Shown piece after piece: positions 25,744-59,645 of a DNA stretch of 64,000 nt. Numbering within the stretch: the stretch's first letter is position 1; every line of letters begins with the position of its first letter. A program made the translations under genes and the position numbers. The DNA is from Microbacterium hydrocarbonoxydans (lineage in GTDB: Bacteria > Actinomycetota > Actinomycetes > Actinomycetales > Microbacteriaceae): the NCBI RefSeq assembly GCF_900105205.1, contig NZ_FNSQ01000005.1:992001-1056000 (forward strand), read 5' to 3'. The notes under the pieces are model-generated. The model was not told the origin of the DNA. It did no database searches and saw only the letters and a list, made by a program, of their open reading frames with translations.

Positions 25744-26141
25744 TGCCGTTCGCCGTCGGAGACGTCGTCGCAGAGCGCACCGTCCACCTCACGCGCGAGT
25801 CCCTCGTGCGATACGCCGGTGCGTCCGGCGACTTCAACCCCATCCACTACCGCGATGACGTGGCAGCGTCGGTCGGTCTCCCCGGCGTGCTCGCCCACGG
25901 CATGCTGACCATGGGCATCGCCTCGTCGGTGGTCGTCGCAGCCCTCGAGCCGGGCACGCGGATCGTCGACTACGGAGTGCGCTTCACCAAGCCGGTGGTG
26001 GTCGACCCGGTCGACGGAGCAGACCTGCATGTGGTCGCGACCGTGGGTGCCGTCGATGAGGCCTCCACGCGCGTCGACCTCAAAGTGACGTTCGACGAGA
26101 CGACCGTCCTGGTCAAGGCGCAGCTGCGCATCGCCTCCTGA
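25743..26141 (+). CDS. HadB-like MaoC dehydratase
   Basis: A 132-residue MaoC-like hydratase/dehydratase. The catalytic signature is present in SGDFNPIHYRDDVAASVGLPG (Asp and His of the hydratase 2 motif) followed by VLAHGMLTMG. The ATG at 25743 overlaps the preceding stop; a GTG one codon earlier is also in frame. It should carry the active site of the heterodimer with the HadA-like partner. The TGA shares a base with the murB ATG; this HadAB-murB coupling is widespread in actinobacteria. Confidence 0.82.
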   Translation: MPFAVGDVVAERTVHLTRESLVRYAGASGDFNPIHYRDDVAASVGLPGVLAHGMLTMGIASSVVVAALEPGTRIVDYGVRFTKPVVVDPVDGADLHVVATVGAVDEASTRVDLKVTFDETTVLVKAQLRIAS

Positions 26142-27283
26142 TGGGCGGCGCGGTGCACGAGGTCGAGCCGATCCGGCTCTCGACTCTGACGACCCTGCGC
26201 ACGGGCGGCGCACCCGAGCGCATGCTCGAGGCGTCGACCACGGCAGAGCTCGTCGACGCGCTCACCGATGTGTGGTCGCGCGGCGAGGACTGGCTCGTCC
26301 TGGGCGGCGGCTCGAACCTGTTCGTCGGCGACGAGCCGTTCGAGGGCACCGTCATCCGCATCCTCACCCAGGGCATCGAGGAGCTGTCGTCGCCGCACGA
26401 GGGTCGCGTGCGACTGCGCGTGCAGGCGGGGCACGGCTGGGACGACCTGGTCGCCTACGCCGTCGAGCACGGGTACGCGGGCCTCGAGGCCATGAGCGGC
26501 ATCCCCGGAACCGTCGGCGCCTCACCCGTTCAGAACATCGGGGCGTACGGCCAGGAGATCCAGGAGACGCTGGTCGAGGTCGAGCTGATCGACGAGGCGA
26601 CGGGCGAGATCTCGGTCGTCCCGGCGGCCGAGCTCGGTCTGGGGTTCCGGACCTCCGTGCTCAAGCACCACTACGGCGGGGTGCCGCAGCGTCGGGCCGT
26701 CATCCTCTCCGTCACGGTCGACCTCGTGGTCGCGAGTGAGCGCGTCGTGCGCGGCGAGCAGCTGCGCAGAGCACTCGGTCTCGACTCCGACGCACCGGTG
26801 CCGCTCACGTGGGTGCGCGAGCGCATCCTCGCCACGCGCGCGTCGAAGGGGATGCTGCTCGATGAGCACGATCCGGACACCCACGGCGTCGGCTCCTTCT
26901 TCCAGAACGCGATCGTGCCGGAGATCGTGGCGCGGTCGCTGCCGCCCGAGTGTCCTCGGTGGCCGGTGACTCCCGACCTCGACGCGGTGACGGTGATCCC
27001 CCTGGCCTCCTACGACGGCTTCGTGTCCGCCGTGAAGCCGGAGGCGCCGGATGTGAAGGTGAGCGCCGCGTGGCTGATCGAGCAGGCCGGGATCCGCAAG
27101 GGGTTCAAGCTCCCGCGGTCGCGCGCCTCGGTCTCGACCAAGCACGCCCTCGCCCTCACCAATCGGGGCGGTGCGACGGCCGCCGAGGTCTCGGAGCTCG
27201 CCCGTTTCATCCAGAGCCGCGTCCACTCGGAGTTCGGCCTCGTGCTGCAGCCAGAGCCGGTGCTGCTGGGCGTCGAGCTCTAG
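26141..27283 (+). CDS. murB: UDP-N-acetylmuramate dehydrogenase
   Basis: FAD enzyme that reduces UDP-GlcNAc-enolpyruvate to UDP-MurNAc in peptidoglycan synthesis. 380 residues. TLTTLRTGGAP starts the FAD domain, WLVLGGGSNLFVGD binds flavin pyrophosphate, and GYAGLEAMSGIPGTVGASPVQNIGAYGQEI is the core signature. The catalytic Ser lies in GVGSFFQNAIV and the third domain ends with FGLVLQPEPVLLG containing the Glu. It is the last gene of a three-gene overlap set; pnuC begins 5 nt later. Confidence 0.95.
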   Translation: MGGAVHEVEPIRLSTLTTLRTGGAPERMLEASTTAELVDALTDVWSRGEDWLVLGGGSNLFVGDEPFEGTVIRILTQGIEELSSPHEGRVRLRVQAGHGWDDLVAYAVEHGYAGLEAMSGIPGTVGASPVQNIGAYGQEIQETLVEVELIDEATGEISVVPAAELGLGFRTSVLKHHYGGVPQRRAVILSVTVDLVVASERVVRGEQLRRALGLDSDAPVPLTWVRERILATRASKGMLLDEHDPDTHGVGSFFQNAIVPEIVARSLPPECPRWPVTPDLDAVTVIPLASYDGFVSAVKPEAPDVKVSAAWLIEQAGIRKGFKLPRSRASVSTKHALALTNRGGATAAEVSELARFIQSRVHSEFGLVLQPEPVLLGVEL

Positions 27284-27288
27284 CGACG

Positions 27289-27900
27289 ATGCTCGACTGG
27301 CTCCAGGCCGAGTGGCCGCAGGTCCTCGGTTTCGTCACCGGCGCCGTGTGCGTCTGGCTCGCCGGCCGACGCCACGTCGCGAACTACCCGATCGGCATCG
27401 CCAACAACATGGTGCTGTTCGTGGTCTTCATCGGCGCGGGGCTGTATGCGACCGCGGTGCTGCAGGTGGTGTACCTGCTCATGGGCGTGCACGGCTGGTG
27501 GCGCTGGACGCACGGCGTCGAGCAGAGTCGCACCTACGTCGTCAGCACTCCTCGCCGCGCGTGGCCGTGGCTGATCGCAGCCGCGCTCGCCGGGACGGCC
27601 GTGCTCGTCTGGGTGCTCGTGACCTTCACCGACTCGCAGGTCGCGATCGCCGACGCCGCCACGACCGCCGTGAGTCTCGTGGCGCAGTACATGCTGAACC
27701 GCAAGTGGATCGAGAACTGGTTCGTCTGGATCGCTGTCGACATTGCGTTCGTCGGACTGTCCATCGCGGCGGGGCTGTGGGTCATCGCTGCGCTCTACAC
27801 GCTCTTCATCGGGCTCTGCGTGATCGGATACCGCTCCTGGCGCCGGGCGGCCGCCGCTGATCTCGGGGCGGGTGCTGCGGCATCCGTCGTCCGCGCGTGA
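27289..27900 (+). CDS. pnuC: PnuC-type nicotinamide riboside transporter
   Basis: A 203-residue membrane protein with seven probable helices. The diagnostic GWWRWT follows YLLMGVH, and NRKWIENWFVWIAVD is the second PnuC signature that contacts nicotinamide riboside. ATG 27289 is close after murB. The next gene is a NadR-type kinase/adenylyltransferase, which would trap imported riboside as NMN and NAD, so the assignment is supported by context. Confidence 0.92.
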   Translation: MLDWLQAEWPQVLGFVTGAVCVWLAGRRHVANYPIGIANNMVLFVVFIGAGLYATAVLQVVYLLMGVHGWWRWTHGVEQSRTYVVSTPRRAWPWLIAAALAGTAVLVWVLVTFTDSQVAIADAATTAVSLVAQYMLNRKWIENWFVWIAVDIAFVGLSIAAGLWVIAALYTLFIGLCVIGYRSWRRAAAADLGAGAAASVVRA

Positions 27901-27924
27901 GGGCGCAGGCGTGAAGGGACGAGC

Positions 27925-29007
27925 ATGAGCGGTCACGGGCTCGGGCACGGACTCGTCATCGGCAAGTTCTATCCCTTCCACAGCGGTCACTCCCACCTGA
28001 TCCGCTCAGCCCAGCGTGCGAGCGACCGGGTCACCGTGCAGGTGCTGGGGGCCTCGGTCGAATCGATACCGCTCGACGTCCGTGCGGCATGGATCCGCGA
28101 GTCCCACCCCGGTGCGACAGTGGTCGCGGCGATGGACGATGCCCCGGTCGACTTCGACTCGGAGTCGGCCTGGGAAGAGCACATGGCGCTGATCGTGTCG
28201 CTGCTCGACAGCCCCGTCGACACAGTGTTCTCGTGCGACGCCTACGGCGGCGAGCTCGCCAGGCGACTCGGCGCGCGATGGGTGCAGATCGACGAGGGAC
28301 GTCGGATCAACCCGGTCTCCGGGACCGCGATCCGAAGCGACGTCGCCGGGCACTGGCATGAGCTCGCCCCGGCCGTGCGGGCCTGGCTCACCTCCAGGGT
28401 CGTGGTGCTGGGCGCCGAGTCGACGGGTTCGACGACCCTCGCCGCAGCGCTCGCGGCGCACCTCGGCACGCTGTGGGTCCCGGAGTACGGTCGCGAGCAC
28501 TCCGTGACCCGTGAGGGCGGCCTGACCGCCCCCTGGCGCAGCGACGAGTTCGACCTGATCGTCGACCGGCAGATCGACCTCGAGCAGCGCGCGCTCCGAG
28601 AGGTGCCCGTGCCCGTGCTCGTGTGCGACACCGACGTGCTGGCGACGGCGCTCTGGCACGAGCGCTACGTGGGTCACCAGGCTCGGCGGCTGCACGACGC
28701 GGCGGCCGCGCACCGTCCGCTCCTGTACGTCCTGACCGGGGACGAGATCCCCTTCGAGCAGGACGGCATGCGCGACGGCGAGCACATCCGCCACGACATG
28801 CAGCAGCGGTTCCGAGACGTACTCGCGGCGCAGGACGTGCCGTGGCTCGAGGTGCGCGGCGATGTGCCGGCGCGCGTCGAGGATGCCGCATCCGCCCTCG
28901 CTCCGCTGCTCGCCGAGAGGCTGCGGTTCGCGGTGCCGCTGGAGGCGAGACCCCTCGACGAGCAGCGTGCGCTCCAGTCGAACGCGCGAGCGAGATCGTT
29001 AGGATGA
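27925..29007 (+). CDS. nadR: NadR-like NMN adenylyltransferase/ribosylnicotinamide kinase
   Basis: A two-domain NAD salvage protein of 360 residues. The N-terminal nucleotidyltransferase has GKFYPFHSGHSHL with the HxGH site (19-22) and SGTAIRSDVAGHW for phosphate binding. The C-terminal kinase-like domain begins near 158. Its Walker A is GAESTGSTT (163-171): the invariant Lys is replaced by Ser169. The rest of the domain (WVPEYGREHS, CDTDVLATALW) looks intact. No N-terminal DNA-binding domain is present, so it is not a repressor like E. coli NadR. Kinase activity is uncertain. Confidence 0.85.
   Translation: MSGHGLGHGLVIGKFYPFHSGHSHLIRSAQRASDRVTVQVLGASVESIPLDVRAAWIRESHPGATVVAAMDDAPVDFDSESAWEEHMALIVSLLDSPVDTVFSCDAYGGELARRLGARWVQIDEGRRINPVSGTAIRSDVAGHWHELAPAVRAWLTSRVVVLGAESTGSTTLAAALAAHLGTLWVPEYGREHSVTREGGLTAPWRSDEFDLIVDRQIDLEQRALREVPVPVLVCDTDVLATALWHERYVGHQARRLHDAAAAHRPLLYVLTGDEIPFEQDGMRDGEHIRHDMQQRFRDVLAAQDVPWLEVRGDVPARVEDAASALAPLLAERLRFAVPLEARPLDEQRALQSNARARSLG
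29000..29005 (+). promoter_or_regulatory. -10 box of the MoxR operon
   Basis: TAGGAT ends 6 nt before the moxR ATG at 29012 and overlaps the nadR stop codon. A leaderless transcript for the five-gene operon is implied; no -35 is evident. Confidence 0.5.
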
Positions 29008-29011
29008 TCGC

Positions 29012-30580
29012 ATGCCCGACCGCTGGAACCGCGTCTCCGCATCTCCCACGAACCCCGGCAGCGGTCACGGCGTCGAGGCGCTGACCGCCGAGGACCTGTT
29101 CCGCCCGGCCGCACGCGCGACCGTGCCTCTCGACGAGAAGCTCCGACAGGTCTACTACTGGATCGTCAACCGTGCGGTGATCTCGCCCTACTACGACATG
29201 GAGTTCTCGCACGGCGAGCCGCTGTCGATCGGGCTCGGAGACGCCGGGGCGACGGTCTCGCTGCCGACCCAGGCCTCGTTCTCGTCGAACGTCCTCGTGC
29301 CGCTGCTCACCTTCGCTGTCGGCGGGAAGTGCCTGCTGATCGGCGGGCCAGGACGCGGCAAGACGACCGTGGCCGTGCTGATGGGGGTGCTCGCCGGCAC
29401 GTCGGCCGAGGACGTGCGACGGGCTGTGCAGCAGGGACAGCCGCAGCTCACCGTGAGCGATCTCGTCGGCATCCCGCTTCCGCGCGACCTCGTCGGCGCG
29501 GAGCGCCTCGCCGACATCCGCATCGCCTGGCGGGACTGGCTCGGTCTCCCGGTGAAGATCATCGACGAGTACAACCGCATCCCCACCAAGACGCAGTCCG
29601 CGCTGCTGACGATGGTGGCGGAGGGATACGTCGAGAGTCACGACCAGATGCGACGCACGGCGCCGGACGGCGGGGTCGAGAGCTGGTTCTTCACCGCCAA
29701 CGACGACGCCGGTGGTGGGACCTTCCCCGTCATCCAGGCGCTCCGCGATCGGATGGACGTCACGGTGCAGGCGGCGGGCTTCAACAGCCGGTTCTTCGAC
29801 GAGCTGATCACCCGCGTCGAGGCGGGGGAGAAGCCGGAGGAGCATGTCCCGGCGGAGCTCGCGTTCGACGCCGCGCAGCAGTCCGAGATGCGCGCGCAGA
29901 TCCGCGCGGTCCCTATCCCGGGTGCGGTGCGGGACCGGCTGCGGTTCTTCCTCAGCCACTTCGAGTTCGTGCAGCACGGAGGGCGCCGGTTCGAGTACCG
30001 GACCAAGGATGTCGTCACGACGGCAGGCGGGCGTGTCGGCGATGTCATCGAAGCCAACAGCGGCGCCGACCTCGAGGTCGACCTCGGGGCGCAGACCCGC
30101 AACGGGCTGTCGGTGCGAGCCCTGCAGACGCTCATCCTGTACGCGAAGGCGATGGCCTGGTTCCGGGGGATGGACGCGGTCGAGCTCGACGATGTCGCGG
30201 CGGTGCTCCCCTTCGTGCTCCGCGGCAAGCTCCTGCCGCACAGCACGCACCCGCGGTTCGACGTCGGTGCCGAACCCGAGCTCAGCACCGACACCGTGAG
30301 CTGGCTGGCCGACCTGTTCACGCAGTCCTGCCGCCAGTACGACGCCCTTGGACGGGATGCCGACGATGAGGTGGCGGCCCTGCTCGCGGACTTCGAGCGA
30401 GGACTCGACGGGGTCTCGGCGCTGGAGGCCTCGCGGCGCATCACGGCGGTCGAGGCGCAGCTGCGTGGGATCGCCACGGTCGGCAAGCTCTACGGACGCG
30501 ACTTCGATGACGTGATCGCGCTGAAGTACCTCCACCAGCGCTACACCGCCTACGTGCGCTGGCAGGAGCTGCGAGGGTGA
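29012..30580 (+). CDS. MoxR-family AAA+ ATPase
   Basis: A 522-residue AAA+ ATPase of the MoxR class, chaperone-like machines that work with VWA-domain adaptors. Walker A GGPGRGKTT is at 111-119, Walker B VKIIDEYNR at 181-189, sensor 1 Asn at about 230 in WFFTAND, and Arg-finger candidates in ALRDRMDV (241-250). The Asp-Glu Walker B pair implies active hydrolysis. A ~100-residue N-terminal part and a ~190-residue helical C-terminal part flank the module, making it longer than typical MoxR (~330). It leads five overlapping genes that include a VWA partner. Confidence 0.85.
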   Translation: MPDRWNRVSASPTNPGSGHGVEALTAEDLFRPAARATVPLDEKLRQVYYWIVNRAVISPYYDMEFSHGEPLSIGLGDAGATVSLPTQASFSSNVLVPLLTFAVGGKCLLIGGPGRGKTTVAVLMGVLAGTSAEDVRRAVQQGQPQLTVSDLVGIPLPRDLVGAERLADIRIAWRDWLGLPVKIIDEYNRIPTKTQSALLTMVAEGYVESHDQMRRTAPDGGVESWFFTANDDAGGGTFPVIQALRDRMDVTVQAAGFNSRFFDELITRVEAGEKPEEHVPAELAFDAAQQSEMRAQIRAVPIPGAVRDRLRFFLSHFEFVQHGGRRFEYRTKDVVTTAGGRVGDVIEANSGADLEVDLGAQTRNGLSVRALQTLILYAKAMAWFRGMDAVELDDVAAVLPFVLRGKLLPHSTHPRFDVGAEPELSTDTVSWLADLFTQSCRQYDALGRDADDEVAALLADFERGLDGVSALEASRRITAVEAQLRGIATVGKLYGRDFDDVIALKYLHQRYTAYVRWQELRG

Positions 30581-31248
30581 ACCGTCTGCCCGTGCAGCTG
30601 GCGAACATCGCGGCGCGCTTCACCCCCGCCGAGCTCCCCGATCTGTCCGCCGCGGGACTGGATGCCGCACTGGCAGCCTCTTCCGTGCGAGCGGCTCACG
30701 GAGACCCGTTGCTGTTCGCTCACGCGCTCGCCGCGGGCGTCGCGACGGACCCATCGGCGGCGACGGGGCGGGAGCGCGCTCTCGCCCTCGTCGCGATCGC
30801 GGCCTGGCGGTCGGGTGCCCTGGCGCTCAGGGCGGATGCTCTCCGCCGGCTCGGCACGGTCGACACCGTGCCCGGTCTGACCGCGGCGGCGGCGACGCTC
30901 GGCCTCGAGCCGGAGGTGCTCGATGAGTTCCGACGCCGTCAGCAGACCGACCGGTACTGGTGGCCAGGGCGCGCGGATCAGCGCGGGTACGTGCTGGCCG
31001 TCGGCGGCTTCCGCGGCATCGGCGGCACCTGGATCCGTCCGCCGGAGCGGGTGGAGCGGCTGGGCGACGACGGCGCCTTCGCGCTGCTGGTCGCCGGAAC
31101 GTGGTGGCGGCTGGACAGCGATGTCTGGGGTGCGCGGCTCTCGTCGCTCTCGGAGGAGCCGTCGAACCTTCCCGCTCGCGACGACGGTGTGAGCGTCGTG
31201 ATCGGACCGGACACCCACCTCGCCTGGGTGCACGTGCAGGAGCAGTGA
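30577..31248 (+). CDS. Uncharacterised MoxR-operon protein A
   Basis: A 223-residue protein I do not recognise. Residues 1-115 are Ala/Leu-rich and helical; 125-223 are rich in Gly, Trp and beta-type residues, with RYWWPGR, a GGFRGIGGTWIRPPERVERL stretch and LLVAGTWWRLDSDVW. No signal peptide or catalytic motif is visible. The GTG start overlaps the moxR stop by 4 nt and its stop overlaps the VWA gene by 1, so it is almost surely a component of the same machine. It should be compared with the bpX accessory domains of MoxR-vWA ternary systems. Confidence 0.7.
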   Translation: MNRLPVQLANIAARFTPAELPDLSAAGLDAALAASSVRAAHGDPLLFAHALAAGVATDPSAATGRERALALVAIAAWRSGALALRADALRRLGTVDTVPGLTAAAATLGLEPEVLDEFRRRQQTDRYWWPGRADQRGYVLAVGGFRGIGGTWIRPPERVERLGDDGAFALLVAGTWWRLDSDVWGARLSSLSEEPSNLPARDDGVSVVIGPDTHLAWVHVQEQ

Positions 31249-33140
31249 TGGCCCGGCTTCCCGACCGCGTGCCGCTGTCCGAGCAGGCTCGCTCCGCCTG
31301 GGAGCGGGCGCTCGCGCTGTGGCGGGTCCGACTGGACGATCCCGCGATCCGACCTGGCGCCGCCGCCGCCCAGGGCGCGCCCGCCTGGTTCGCGTTCCCG
31401 CCGTCGGTGACCGTGGATCCGCGCTATCTCGCCGATCACGGGCTCGCCGACGAGCTGTGGAGCATGTTCGCCCACGAGATCGGTCACCATGTGCTGGCCC
31501 CCAGCACCCGGATCGACTCGCTCAAGATCGATCACCAGATGGCCAGGGCGGTCGCGGTCGCCTCGCCGCGGCGTGACGCGGGCGACGGGGCGCGGCGGCT
31601 GTCGAATCTGTGGTGCGACCTGCTCGTGAACACGAGGCTCGCCCAGCTCCAGCGGGCGGAGCGGGCGCCCGACCTCGTGCCCACCGCCGCCCTGGGCGTC
31701 GTCCGCCTCGGGCGCGCGCTGTACCCGGCTCCCGAGGGGAGCACCGACCGTCTCTGGTGGGTCTATTGCCGCGCCTACGAGCTGCTGTGGCAGCTGCCGG
31801 CAGGAACTCTGTGCCCAGCCCAGCCCCCGGCGCGGCCAGTGCGGGCGCGCGTCGAATCGACCGAGGTGCCGCTCAGCCGCATCCCGGAGAAGCACCGGGA
31901 GCAGGAGCGGCTGCTGCGGGCGGCGCGCGCCGAGAGCGCACGTGTGGCCGCCGAGCTCGCGGGGGCGACTGCGACGAATCCCGCGGTGGACGCCGCTCTC
32001 ATCGCGGATGCGGTCAGGTCCTTCTCCGCCGACCCTGTCTCGGGAGCGGCACTGTTCGGTGTGATCGCGGCGCCGTACCTCGCGGAGCACGACGGCGCGG
32101 GCGGGGTCGGCGATACCCCGAAGGGCGGCGGGCGAGGCAGCAGCGCCACGAGCGGATGCGGGGTCGACGATGCCCCGGCCACCGCGGACGAGCTCGGTCG
32201 CATCCTGGCCGATCAACGGCTCCGCAGGGACCTGCCTCGACATCCCGGCGCGCACCGGGAGACGGACGAGGGCATCGACGGCGACGATGCCTCGGACGAC
32301 GGGAGCGTCGGGCAGACCCTGACGATCGCCCGAACGCTGCAGCTGTACAGCGAGAGCGGAGAGGATGCCGTGCTCGCCGCCTGGTACCGCAACGAGGCCG
32401 CAGCGTGGGTGCGCCCCTATACCCGTCGGGCGGCCTCGACGCCGACCGGCGGCATCCCCGGTCCCGTCGAGCTGTGGGAGGTGGGCGACGCACTCGCGGA
32501 CGTCGACTGGCCGCTGACGATGCGCTCGGGTGCGGTCATCCCCGGGGTCACCACGCGTCGACGCTCGGAGCTCGACGATGAACCGCTCGTGCAGGAGACG
32601 AGTCTCGAGCTCGACCTGTACATCGACTCGTCCGGGTCCATGACCCATCCGCGCAACGGTTCGCCCGCCGTCCTCGCGGCGACGATCCTCGCACTGTCGA
32701 TCCTGCGCGGCGGCGGCAGGGTGCGTGTCACCAGCTTCTCCGGCACCGGCGAGGTGGCCGGCATGACCCGCTTCGGTCGGAACCCGTCCGAGATCATCGC
32801 CGCCGTGTCGCTCTTCTTCGGGCGTTCGACCTCCTTCCCGCTCGACCTTTACTCCTCCCGCTATGCCGGACTCCCGCCCGCCGGCGACGAGGCCCAGCGC
32901 CACGTCGTGGTGCTCTCCGACGACGGACTCGTGTCGATGTTCGGCGTCGGCAACGAGCCGTACGCGGGGGTCGCGAAGACCGTTCGTCAGGTCCTGACCA
33001 CCGGTACGCTCGTGCTCATGGATCCTCGGCACCAGGTGGCGCAGCTCGCCGAGCGCGACGGTTACGACGTGGTGTATCTGCGCACGATGGCCGACGCCCC
33101 TCGAGCCTGCGCGGCGTTGGCGGAGGCTCTGCATGGCTGA
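31248..33140 (+). CDS. Metalloprotease-like VWA-domain protein
   Basis: A 630-residue predicted partner of the MoxR ATPase. The N-terminal part has a zincin motif H76-E-I-G-H80-H preceded by ELWSMFA, and a downstream NLWCDLLVNTRL segment that could give a third metal ligand, as in DUF2201-type VWA peptidases. A disordered Gly/Asp-rich linker (about 310-370) follows. The C-terminal VWA domain (about 450-625) carries the MIDAS motif D460-S-S-G-S464 and the Asp pair 558-559 in VVVLSDDGL. No signal or membrane segment is present, so it is cytosolic. ATG 31248 overlaps the previous stop; the frame upstream is a shadow. Confidence 0.82.
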   Translation: MARLPDRVPLSEQARSAWERALALWRVRLDDPAIRPGAAAAQGAPAWFAFPPSVTVDPRYLADHGLADELWSMFAHEIGHHVLAPSTRIDSLKIDHQMARAVAVASPRRDAGDGARRLSNLWCDLLVNTRLAQLQRAERAPDLVPTAALGVVRLGRALYPAPEGSTDRLWWVYCRAYELLWQLPAGTLCPAQPPARPVRARVESTEVPLSRIPEKHREQERLLRAARAESARVAAELAGATATNPAVDAALIADAVRSFSADPVSGAALFGVIAAPYLAEHDGAGGVGDTPKGGGRGSSATSGCGVDDAPATADELGRILADQRLRRDLPRHPGAHRETDEGIDGDDASDDGSVGQTLTIARTLQLYSESGEDAVLAAWYRNEAAAWVRPYTRRAASTPTGGIPGPVELWEVGDALADVDWPLTMRSGAVIPGVTTRRRSELDDEPLVQETSLELDLYIDSSGSMTHPRNGSPAVLAATILALSILRGGGRVRVTSFSGTGEVAGMTRFGRNPSEIIAAVSLFFGRSTSFPLDLYSSRYAGLPPAGDEAQRHVVVLSDDGLVSMFGVGNEPYAGVAKTVRQVLTTGTLVLMDPRHQVAQLAERDGYDVVYLRTMADAPRACAALAEALHG

Positions 33141-33741
33141 GACGGAAGCGCTTCTCGCGGCGTGGAGCGAACGCTCAGGCGGTGAAGCCGAAGCCTGGGC
33201 GCGCGCACGCCCGGGACCCCGCCTCGACGCGATCGCGGCGCGGATCTCCGGGGTCCCGCAGGAGTTCCTCGACGAGCGGATCTCCCTGCGGGCGCTCGCC
33301 GGAGACGTCCTCGGCGCACAGCTCGCGGCGCAGCGTTTCGACGACGACCCGCGGGTGCGTCAGGGGGCGGCGATCGGTCTCTGGCTCGCAGCGAGCGAGG
33401 GACTGCTCGAGCCCTTCGAGCCGGCCCTCTCGACCGGATGGCCCGCCCTCGCCGTCGACGCCCTGGCACTTCGGGTCGCCCCGGTGGCAGCGCCGTCGGC
33501 ATGGACCTCCGACGAGGAGAGACGGATCGAGGCTGCGCGCACGTTCCTGCTGTGGTGCGGGTTCCTCCCCGCGGGCGAGGATGCCGCGACGGCCGCCTCG
33601 CTGCTCGCCGCTTGCGACTCGCTCGCCCGCAACCGGGCGCTGGCCGAGGCGTACGAGGGGCACCGGCATCGGGCGGACATCGCCCGCAAGCTCCAGGAGG
33701 CCCGACGCAAGGAGGCGGCGGCGCGGTACTCCAGTGAGTGA
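33133..33741 (+). CDS. Uncharacterised helical MoxR-operon protein B
   Basis: A 202-residue, almost wholly alpha-helical soluble protein rich in Ala, Arg and Glu. The middle portion (RFDDDPRVRQGAAIGLWLA) is reminiscent of a HEAT-type repeat, and the end is a basic coiled-coil-like helix (YEGHRHRADIARKLQEARRK). I do not recognise a family. It overlaps the VWA gene by 8 nt and the next gene by 8 nt, so it is part of the same coupled operon. A scaffold or adaptor role is a guess from composition only. Confidence 0.68.
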   Translation: MAETEALLAAWSERSGGEAEAWARARPGPRLDAIAARISGVPQEFLDERISLRALAGDVLGAQLAAQRFDDDPRVRQGAAIGLWLAASEGLLEPFEPALSTGWPALAVDALALRVAPVAAPSAWTSDEERRIEAARTFLLWCGFLPAGEDAATAASLLAACDSLARNRALAEAYEGHRHRADIARKLQEARRKEAAARYSSE

Positions 33742-35095
33742 CCCGGACCTCGCGGGAGCGCTGGCGCTCGCGGAGTACGCGCAGGGGGAAGCCGCGGTGC
33801 TGTCGGATGCCGAGCGCTGGCCGACGATCGACCGGGAGGGGTCGGCGCGGCTGTCGCGCTGGCGCGCGCATCCCGACGCCCCGCACTGGACCCATGCCAC
33901 CGGCGACAGACTGACCGCCGAGCAGGTGGAGCGGGTGCGCCGGCCGCTCCCGATCGACGGCTGGCTCGAGGAGCACCTCGCCACGGCCCGCCGCACGCTG
34001 CGGTATCGCGGGATGCCCGCCGGCTCGGCGCTCGAGGAGCATCCCACGATCTCCCGCACCGACCTCGTCGACGACCTGGCGGCGTTCGTCCCTCTCGACG
34101 CCGATCTCTCCCGGATGCTCCACGGCACGAGCTCCGGGTCGACCGGTGCCGCCCTGCTGATCCCGGACGACGTCGAGGAGGTCGCGCGCGGCTTCCACCT
34201 GCTCCTGAGCCTCGCCGAACGCGCCGGAGCCACCGTCGTCGCGGACGGTGAGCGGATGGCGGTCGCCAACCTCGTCTTCCAACGGCAGGCGTTCACGTAC
34301 GTGTCGGTGATCTCCAGCTTCGCGCACCGGGCGATGGCACGGCTCAACCTGCATCCCTCGGCGTGGCCGGAGCCGGCCGCCCGTACCCGCTTCCTCGCCG
34401 ACGCCGACCCGCAGATCCTCAGCGGACACCCGACGAGCTTGGCCGAGCTGCTGGATGCAGGGCTCGATAGCGCCCTGCATCCCGCGGTCGTCTTCTCCGG
34501 GGCGATGGCCTTGTCCGCTCCGTTGCGTGCACGGCTGGAGGCGGCCTTCGCCTGCCCGGTCATCGACGTCTACGGCCTGCACGAGACGCGCCCGATCGCG
34601 GCGCGCGCCGACGCCGGTCCGTTCCGGATCCTCGACCGCCGGGTGCACGTCGAGGTGCTGGACCCCCGGCGGGACGTCGCCGTCTCGCCCGGAGAGATGG
34701 GCGAGATCGTGGTGACGGCGGGGGAGAACCCGCTCCTGCCTCTGGTGCGATACCGCACCGGCGACCACGGACGTCTGGTGACGCTCGCCGACGGCACACA
34801 GGGCATCGCCGATCTCGAGGGCAGGGAGAACACGCGTTTCCTGGCCGCGGACGGCACTCTCGTGCCGTGTGTGGAACTGACCCAGCAGCTGCAGTCGCAC
34901 GGCGCGGAGGGCTGGTCGATCGCGCAGGACTCCGACGGCGAGATCAGTGCGACGATCGTCGCAGGCGACCAGCGCGCGATCCGCACCGCACTGCATGTCC
35001 TGCTCGGGCAGCCGCTGACGGTGCGTCGGGTCGCGCGGCCCATCGACCTCGGCGAGGGGAAGCCGCGCCGCTACCGCAGCGCCGTCCCCGACTGA
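33734..35095 (+). CDS. PaaK-like adenylate-forming enzyme
   Basis: A 453-residue member of the phenylacetate-CoA ligase/CapK (COG1541) group. The P-loop-like motif GTSSGSTGAALLIP is at about 138-151, followed by SGHPTSLAELL, YGLHETRP (A5-type) and RYRTGDHGRLVTLADG with the hinge region. No clear C-terminal GKxx catalytic Lys motif can be placed beyond GEGKPRRYR at the very end. GTG 33734 overlaps the preceding stop by 8 nt. An enzyme that adenylates a carboxylate fits poorly with a metabolic role in this operon; substrate conjugation or protein modification are alternatives. Last gene of the operon. Confidence 0.78.
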   Translation: MSDPDLAGALALAEYAQGEAAVLSDAERWPTIDREGSARLSRWRAHPDAPHWTHATGDRLTAEQVERVRRPLPIDGWLEEHLATARRTLRYRGMPAGSALEEHPTISRTDLVDDLAAFVPLDADLSRMLHGTSSGSTGAALLIPDDVEEVARGFHLLLSLAERAGATVVADGERMAVANLVFQRQAFTYVSVISSFAHRAMARLNLHPSAWPEPAARTRFLADADPQILSGHPTSLAELLDAGLDSALHPAVVFSGAMALSAPLRARLEAAFACPVIDVYGLHETRPIAARADAGPFRILDRRVHVEVLDPRRDVAVSPGEMGEIVVTAGENPLLPLVRYRTGDHGRLVTLADGTQGIADLEGRENTRFLAADGTLVPCVELTQQLQSHGAEGWSIAQDSDGEISATIVAGDQRAIRTALHVLLGQPLTVRRVARPIDLGEGKPRRYRSAVPD

Positions 35096-35126: not shown

Positions 35127-35528
35127 ATGAGCGGACTGATCCCGTACCTGCTGTTCCCCGGCAACGCCGCAGAGGCGCTCGAGCACTATCGCTCGGTCTT
35201 CGGCGGCGACCTGCAGCTTCTCGACTACGCACATGCCGGGCGTCACGACGGTCCCGGTGACGCGATCGCGCACGGGCAGCTGTCGGGTCCGGTCGAGCTG
35301 GCAGGAGCGGATGCCGGTGCCGACGACGACGCCGTGCAGATGAACGGCATGTTCCTCTCGCTGCTGGGCACCGCGGACGCCTCGACGCTCACCAGCTGGT
35401 TCGACCGGCTCGCCGTGCAGGGGCGCGTCATCGATGCGCTGCAGAAGCGCCCGTGGGGCGACTATGACGGTACGCTCGTCGACCGCTACGGAATCCGCTG
35501 GCTCATCGGATTCCACGACGAGGACTGA
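35127..35528 (+). CDS. PhnB-like VOC-family protein
   Basis: A 133-residue glyoxalase/bleomycin-resistance (VOC) superfamily protein of the PhnB subgroup. It shows the characteristic PYLLFPGNAAEALEHYRSVFGG start, followed by GDAIAHGQLSG, FLSLLG and the end RPWGDYDGTLVDRYGIRWLIGF. Function within PhnB-like proteins is generally unknown. It converges with aspC, leaving only 12 nt between stop codons. Confidence 0.85.
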   Translation: MSGLIPYLLFPGNAAEALEHYRSVFGGDLQLLDYAHAGRHDGPGDAIAHGQLSGPVELAGADAGADDDAVQMNGMFLSLLGTADASTLTSWFDRLAVQGRVIDALQKRPWGDYDGTLVDRYGIRWLIGFHDED

Positions 35529-59533: not shown

Positions 59534-59606
<73 letters not shown>

Positions 59607-59645
59607 CGCGTCAGCACAGGCTGACACACGAAAGGTACATTCAGG

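Follow-up and report, generated by a model that had tools for sequence, protein, structure and literature searches.

Pairs of a MoxR-type AAA+ ATPase and a VWA-domain protein are common, and to our knowledge few of them have known clients. What, then, might such a pair be doing in Microbacterium hydrocarbonoxydans, where it sits among five overlapping genes with a predicted protease motif and an adenylate-forming enzyme for company? The genes, here called A to E, lie on the forward strand of a 64,000-nucleotide window, by which we mean the whole stretch of DNA analysed (contig NZ_FNSQ01000005.1, positions 992,001 to 1,056,000; coordinates below are counted from its first letter). A sequence-only reading of this window had proposed A-E as the unit, and a check of the open reading frames (ORFs) confirmed their coordinates and their overlaps of 4, 1, 8 and 8 nt at A/B, B/C, C/D and D/E. 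A-E are indeed a conserved core, but the unit does not start at A. Two further genes on the same strand belong to it: pnuC (27289..27900), the first gene of the cassette, encoding a nicotinamide riboside transporter, and a gene for a NadR-like bifunctional nicotinamide mononucleotide (NMN) adenylyltransferase/ribosylnicotinamide kinase (27925..29007), with gaps of 24 nt between pnuC and nadR and 4 nt between nadR and A. The cassette pnuC-nadR-A-B-C-D-E is a seven-gene unit with A-E as its core, and the PnuC-NadR link, absent from the earlier reading, is the best clue to its function.

A-E constitute a conserved system with a MoxR-VWA core and not a local accident. Scanning GTDB species genomes with A returned 403 stretches, 336 of which encode a relative; the best 80 of these 336 were kept as loci, and per-gene profiles found B in 78 of them, C in 77, D in 73, E in 71, NadR in 56 and PnuC in 55. 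In 70 of the 80, all five genes follow one another on one strand as A-B-C-D-E (in a few of these E is cut at a contig end). The remainder comprise six loci cut earlier by contig ends (L014, L017, L044, L064, L065 and L089), two with D-E on another contig (L048, L090), one with D-E divergent (L078) and one from a Verrucomicrobiaceae metagenome-assembled genome (MAG; L081) in which D-E-PnuC-NadR follow further along the same contig. Synteny of the five genes across distant taxa had been named beforehand as evidence for a system, and the record titles place the loci in ten groups at phylum level: Actinomycetota, Bacteroidota, Planctomycetota, Myxococcota, Thermodesulfobacteriota, Pseudomonadota, Verrucomicrobiota, Chloroflexota, Gemmatimonadota and Melainabacteria. 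Records outside Actinomycetota and Flavobacterium are mostly MAGs, and the carriers include named isolates of Microbacterium, Flavobacterium and Cellulomonas. Overlaps of 1-14 nt recur in the relatives at A-B (29/78), B-C (35/77), C-D (36/72) and D-E (20/72), as counted with starts picked by a script that places them too late for many long B genes.

Closer to home, the same genes keep one another's company. A set of 297 genomes of the order was searched for C, D, E and NadR alone. C was found in 13 at E <=0.001, one of which was dropped (G238, 4e-4 over 91 residues), and D in 13, one again being dropped (G234, 1e-5); E reached <=1e-100 in 12, the next best match (8e-24) being to other PaaK-like enzymes, which are common in the order (73/297 genomes at 1e-10). 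The same 12 genomes hold the strong matches to all three, and the scattering of homologues that would have told against a system is not seen for these three genes. Within the genus, 4 of 35 genomes have C, the source genome included, as does 1 of 23 other genomes of the order. The three other carriers in the genus have an unbroken row of NadR, A, B, C, D and E; in the fourth relative, G047, NadR, A, C, D and E were found by tblastn and B later by profile. Across the phylum, A is matched at 1e-30 in three of 346 genomes (G000, G511 and G683).

Within the genus, the 7.8-kb stretch 27289-35095 behaves as a single piece that is either there or missing, as seen from the empty site in three close relatives (G001, G004 and G013; MurB 83-87% identical), where the right-hand neighbour of E in the window comes 34-49 nt after murB, with an aminotransferase gene next in line. 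The two flanking genes lie outside the cassette, both on the forward strand: murB on the left (26141..27283) and on the right a 133-amino-acid ORF (35127..35528) that has no Pfam match at 1e-5 and is provisionally labelled VOC. The remaining twelve same-genus genomes in this comparison have other murB neighbours or too little flank, and none offers a matching empty site. No integrases or repeats were seen by eye in alignments of the empty-site junctions, no search having been aimed at them.

The cassette is also linked to nicotinamide riboside salvage. PnuC matches Pfam NMN_transporter at 170.5 bits and NCBIfam PnuC at 87.1 bits (cut-off 42.45), and the NadR-like protein matches TIGR01526 over residues 8-313, including the NMN adenylyltransferase and ribosylnicotinamide kinase regions (the latter also as AAA_28), at 168 bits against a cut-off of 341, as a divergent relative would. 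The two correspond to the known PnuC-NadR pair for nicotinamide riboside salvage. NadR is linked to the cassette in 56 of the 80 loci, with PnuC beside it in 54 of the 56. In the 297 genomes of the order, NadR is found at 1e-20 in 22 (27 at 0.001), among them all 12 cassette genomes, where it lies on the same contig and within 8 kb of C in every case; it occurs anywhere in 10 of the 285 cassette-free genomes at 1e-20 (15 at 0.001). The hypergeometric value for 12/12 among 22/297 at 1e-20 is 8e-16, which is no proper probability because the genomes are related.

Four arrangements of NadR were found. In Actinomycetota and Bacteroidota, PnuC-NadR precede the other genes and share their strand; in two planctomycetes (L053, L087) they are again upstream but divergent, and in a member of the Myxococcota (L056) they are downstream and convergent. 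NadR lies downstream on the same strand in Geobacteraceae (L055), Verrucomicrobiaceae (L126) and Chloroflexota (L075, where NadR is partial and PnuC was not found). In Steroidobacter, E is cut by a contig end (L072), and another contig of that genome (L144) ends inside E with PnuC-NadR adjoining it in the same order, in keeping with the link. In the NadR tree, the linked Bacteroidota sequences cluster with the planctomycete ones, far from those of the actinobacteria, in well separated parts of the tree. Four arrangements and NadR proteins drawn from such separate parts speak against mere hitchhiking of PnuC-NadR.

Whether A has a transcript of its own is a separate matter. The proposal that A-E are made from one leaderless transcript gains no support: a simple promoter scan detected no site ahead of A. 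The TAGGAT box, whose end lies 6 nt upstream of A's ATG, falls within the 3' end of nadR, which is on the same strand and has its stop 4 nt upstream of A, and A may well continue an upstream transcript.

What do the five core proteins look like? A (29012..30580, forward strand as are all the genes that follow; 522 amino acids) is a MoxR-like ATPase, as had been read: it matches AAA_lid_2 at 35.3 bits (cut-off 22.7) and AAA_3 at 25.7 bits, just under the cut-off of 27 (30.9 bits for its L055 relative), and its GGPGRGKT Walker A motif (29342..29365) and DExNR motif are kept in 80 of 80 homologues. A profile search of the PDB gave one match only, 2r44 at 2.9e-6. In Microbacterium sp. Leaf159 (L041:10001-11520), A is matched in two overlapping frames and looks frameshifted or misread.

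A has a VWA-motif partner, C, in 77 of the 80 loci. C (31248..33140; 630 amino acids) is predicted from its motifs to carry a zincin metallopeptidase region followed by a VWA domain, with HEIGHH at 31473..31490 and the DSSGS metal-ion-dependent adhesion site (MIDAS) motif at 32625..32639. All 77 homologues keep both HExGHH and DxSGS, which bears out the claim of a zincin motif within a VWA protein, and an N-x3-D-x-L-x-N motif, which may hold the third metal ligand, follows HExGHH in 76 of the 77. C stops about 70 residues past the second MIDAS aspartate. The window copy has no Pfam match at E 1 and no NCBIfam match, and weak matches to Pfam VWA_2 and to Peptidase_M48 appear in 2 of 36 members each.

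B (30577..31248; 223 amino acids) has no Pfam or NCBIfam match in its window copy, and none of the single scans of B, C and D, from the window and from two relatives, reached a Pfam or NCBIfam cut-off. The AlphaFold2 model of B from L055, with a predicted local distance difference test (pLDDT) of 95.8, and fold searches divide it into a helical part and a C-terminal beta part. In a long B the C-terminal part aligns with WD40 propellers over about 110 residues, a likeness of shape only; compared with B of Geobacteraceae (L055), Flavobacterium and other long-B loci, the window copy is missing some 110 residues at its N-terminus. This likeness makes it doubtful that the system lacks a beta-propeller, as had been supposed. 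D (33133..33741; 202 amino acids) is modelled as mostly helical (pLDDT 96.1), with a 39-residue final helix bearing a C-terminal tail conserved in the alignment (33706..33738); it has one weak Pfam match below cut-off and none in NCBIfam, and the confident models of B and D alike gave no significant Foldseek match. In a Sporocytophaga MAG (L085:12498-14843), C and D are fused in one ORF of 782 codons.

E (33734..35095; 453 amino acids, GTG start) stands as a PaaK-type adenylate-forming enzyme, with AMP-binding above the Pfam cut-off and a PDB match to a PaaK-like protein at 7.5e-14, the PaaK equivalog cut-off not being reached: its top NCBIfam matches, the DVU_1553 family and PaaK, are both far under their cut-offs (PaaK 37.7 bits versus 646). 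The ATP-binding loop (GTSSGSTG, 34124..34147) and the A5 and YRTGD motifs align in 32 representatives, with single exceptions. Elsewhere in the window, a tRNA-Trp (cca) at 59534-59607 is the sole tRNA gene and the sole Rfam match at gathering scores.

Is this a known system under another guise? The cassette resembles E. coli yehI-yehL-yehM-yehP-yehQ (DUF4132, MoxR YehL, YehM, VWA YehP and SWIM YehQ) in joining a MoxR and a VWA protein to unknown partners, but A and C are remote from YehL and YehP (BLAST E 0.001 or weaker; hhalign probability 81% over 174 columns for A-YehL and 31% over 85 columns for C-YehP), and the annotation of the E. coli yeh stretch lists neither a zincin nor a PaaK-like or NadR gene. 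One Verrucomicrobiaceae contig (JAGKWZ010000021.1; L081 with L126) holds both: a yehI-L-M-P-Q-like module lies inside the A-E operon, between a radical SAM gene and D, in the order A-B-C-radical SAM-DUF4132-type genes-MoxR-DUF5682-VWA_CoxE-SWIM-D-E-PnuC-NadR, and its proteins are 53% (YehL), 53% (YehP), 34% (YehM), 28% (YehQ) and 27-28% (YehI) identical to those of E. coli. L062 (19373-21555) also has VWA_CoxE and DUF5682 relatives of this module, encoded on the opposite strand some 2 kb past E.

We know of no zincin, adenylate-forming enzyme or linked NAD (nicotinamide adenine dinucleotide) salvage genes in RavA-ViaA, another MoxR-VWA pair. By the title of PMC3893208, RavA-ViaA interacts with NADH:ubiquinone oxidoreductase I, an NAD-linked client. 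A jumbo-phage pair proposed for virion assembly shares the anatomy of A and C, having a metallopeptidase N-terminal to a vWA domain and a MoxR partner (PMC7824862, as far as its accessible text goes); the likeness is one of anatomy. Literature searches found no published description of the cassette, and no report, by title or abstract start, of PnuC-NadR within a MoxR-VWA cassette. As far as seen in the portions of the sources at hand, its composition is unmatched in the MoxR-vWA ternary systems (PMC7159879), the jumbo-phage pair, viral NAD systems (PMC9503650), RavA-ViaA and yeh.

The answer we favour, at just under an even chance, is an NAD-linked MoxR-VWA machine that remodels or processes a client encoded elsewhere; its steps, which we infer, would taken together fall clearly short of even prospects. 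That PnuC-NadR so often accompany A-E directs attention to NAD or nicotinamide riboside: PnuC would import nicotinamide riboside and the NadR-like enzyme would convert it to NMN/NAD. MoxR-vWA pairs, in the accessible text of PMC7159879, consist of an ATP-driven MoxR ring and a peptide-binding VWA co-chaperone, and by that knowledge A would form an AAA+ ring and C would act as its co-chaperone, its MIDAS site binding an acidic peptide. C would also carry a zincin active site, the motif suggesting that the bound client is processed; that the ATPase and VWA unit present targets to the protease, as had been proposed, is still an inference. D, fused to C once, may be an adaptor or substrate, with its conserved C-terminal tail passed to C or E, while B, with its helical and propeller-like parts, might serve as scaffold and E would drive the ATP-dependent activation of a carboxylate, be it a small acid or a protein tail. 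Jointly, these proteins would remodel, process or mature an NAD-dependent client encoded elsewhere, and the cassette would serve metabolism or maturation rather than defence against phages.

Several points weigh against this proposal. The zincin and VWA assignment of C is predicted from its motifs and from weak matches to Pfam. B varies in sequence (20-48% identity to B of L055), and three of the 32 aligned E proteins, all planctomycete (L053, L080 and L087), lack the C-terminal end that bears the usual lysine of adenylate-forming enzymes. The activity of the linked NadR-like enzymes is itself deduced from sequence, and the three tested score 168, 182 and 144 bits against the equivalog cut-off of 341. 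No NadR was found in the retrieved DNA of 24 of the 80 loci; in the 22 of these genomes that were searched (all except those of L044 and L064), 19 have a NadR match elsewhere (partial in G335; adjoining E in G331 and G349) and three have none (G330, G332 and G333). The NadR locus shares no DNA with the retrieved A locus in ten Pseudonocardiaceae-type and two Agreia loci. In the phylum set, NadR reaches 1e-20 in 10 of 346 genomes, including G000 and G511 and not G683; in G511 it is on a different contig from A, and G683 (L149) holds a distant A-C pair without a strong NadR, which may mark a sister group.

In one alternative, E and the divergent NadR-like enzyme might form a biosynthetic route to an adenylated or pyridine-nucleotide-derived cofactor, with A-C as a chelatase-type AAA/VWA pair and a radical SAM enzyme as optional modifier. 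The low scores of the NadR relatives and the retained adenylate-forming motifs of E would fit, as would a weak match of A from L055 to chelatase ATPases (E 0.0005) and a radical SAM/SPASM gene in 6 of the 80 loci (between C and D in four of the six), whose L055 copy matches peptide and cofactor maturases below cut-offs. Yet PnuC stands beside NadR in nearly every linked locus, which fits ordinary nicotinamide riboside salvage, and no other biosynthetic gene is common across lineages among the selected gene clusters inspected; we regard this route as unlikely.

Much the same judgement falls on a MoxR-vWA system for phage defence or conflict, with PnuC-NadR restoring NAD after an NAD-depleting attack. 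MoxR-vWA ternary conflict systems exist (Kaur et al. 2020, PMC7159879) and, in the part of that paper available, likewise combine a MoxR ATPase, a vWA protein and a third component with helical and propeller regions. The patchy occurrence of the cassette within the genus, the variable, propeller-like B, the interruption of the operon by a second MoxR-VWA module in one genome and a match of one of 36 C members to Pfam fvmX3, a domain of FtsH ternary systems (E 0.063), could all be read this way. By the same text, however, the propeller of those systems resides in the vWA protein itself, whereas the propeller-like part is here in B; their third component has a variable, membrane-spanning N-terminal region; their MoxR P-loop is often GxxxTAKS, a form found in none of the 80 A homologues against GGPGRGKT here; and the cassette differs from them in its zincin motif, PaaK-like enzyme and PnuC-NadR. 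No bpX or bpMoxR Pfam family, a check suggested by the sequence-only reading for A and B, was matched at E 1 by A-E of the window or the scanned L055 and L059 relatives, or at E 0.1 by members of A4, A5 and A7, and no effector domain was recognised. The conflict role raised in that reading gains no support from database searches either: in PADLOC 2.0 only A was matched, and only in short stretches around its P-loop (E 0.002 or weaker); searches of 72,556 plasmid and 50,697 phage records with A came back empty at 1e-5, and viral contigs held no relative of it; plasmids gave no match to D at 0.01; and A and C of L055 met only fragments in phages (E 0.006 or weaker). We regard a defence function, too, as unlikely.

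Might PnuC-NadR be a mere neighbour, hitchhiking with a general MoxR-VWA chaperone? The 24 loci without NadR in the retrieved DNA speak for it, and since the genus gains or lacks the cassette whole, much of the linkage within families can be put down to shared descent. Against this stand the recurrence of the link in several phyla, its four arrangements, the distant NadR sequences involved and the contrast within the order between cassette genomes, all with NadR, and the few others that have it; we consider hitchhiking decidedly unlikely. Very unlikely, finally, is a carrier role for D, in which E would adenylate its conserved tail and the radical SAM enzyme, in loci that have one, would modify it; PnuC and the divergent NadR would provide an NAD-derived group to be loaded onto the tail, and A-C would install or remove that group. 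If true, this would be a pyridine-nucleotide-based protein-tag or cofactor-carrier system unlike known MoxR-VWA systems.

Few MoxR-VWA pairs, as said at the outset, have known clients. Here the operon itself names the metabolic area, nicotinamide riboside salvage and NAD, and because several carriers are named isolates its function is directly testable.

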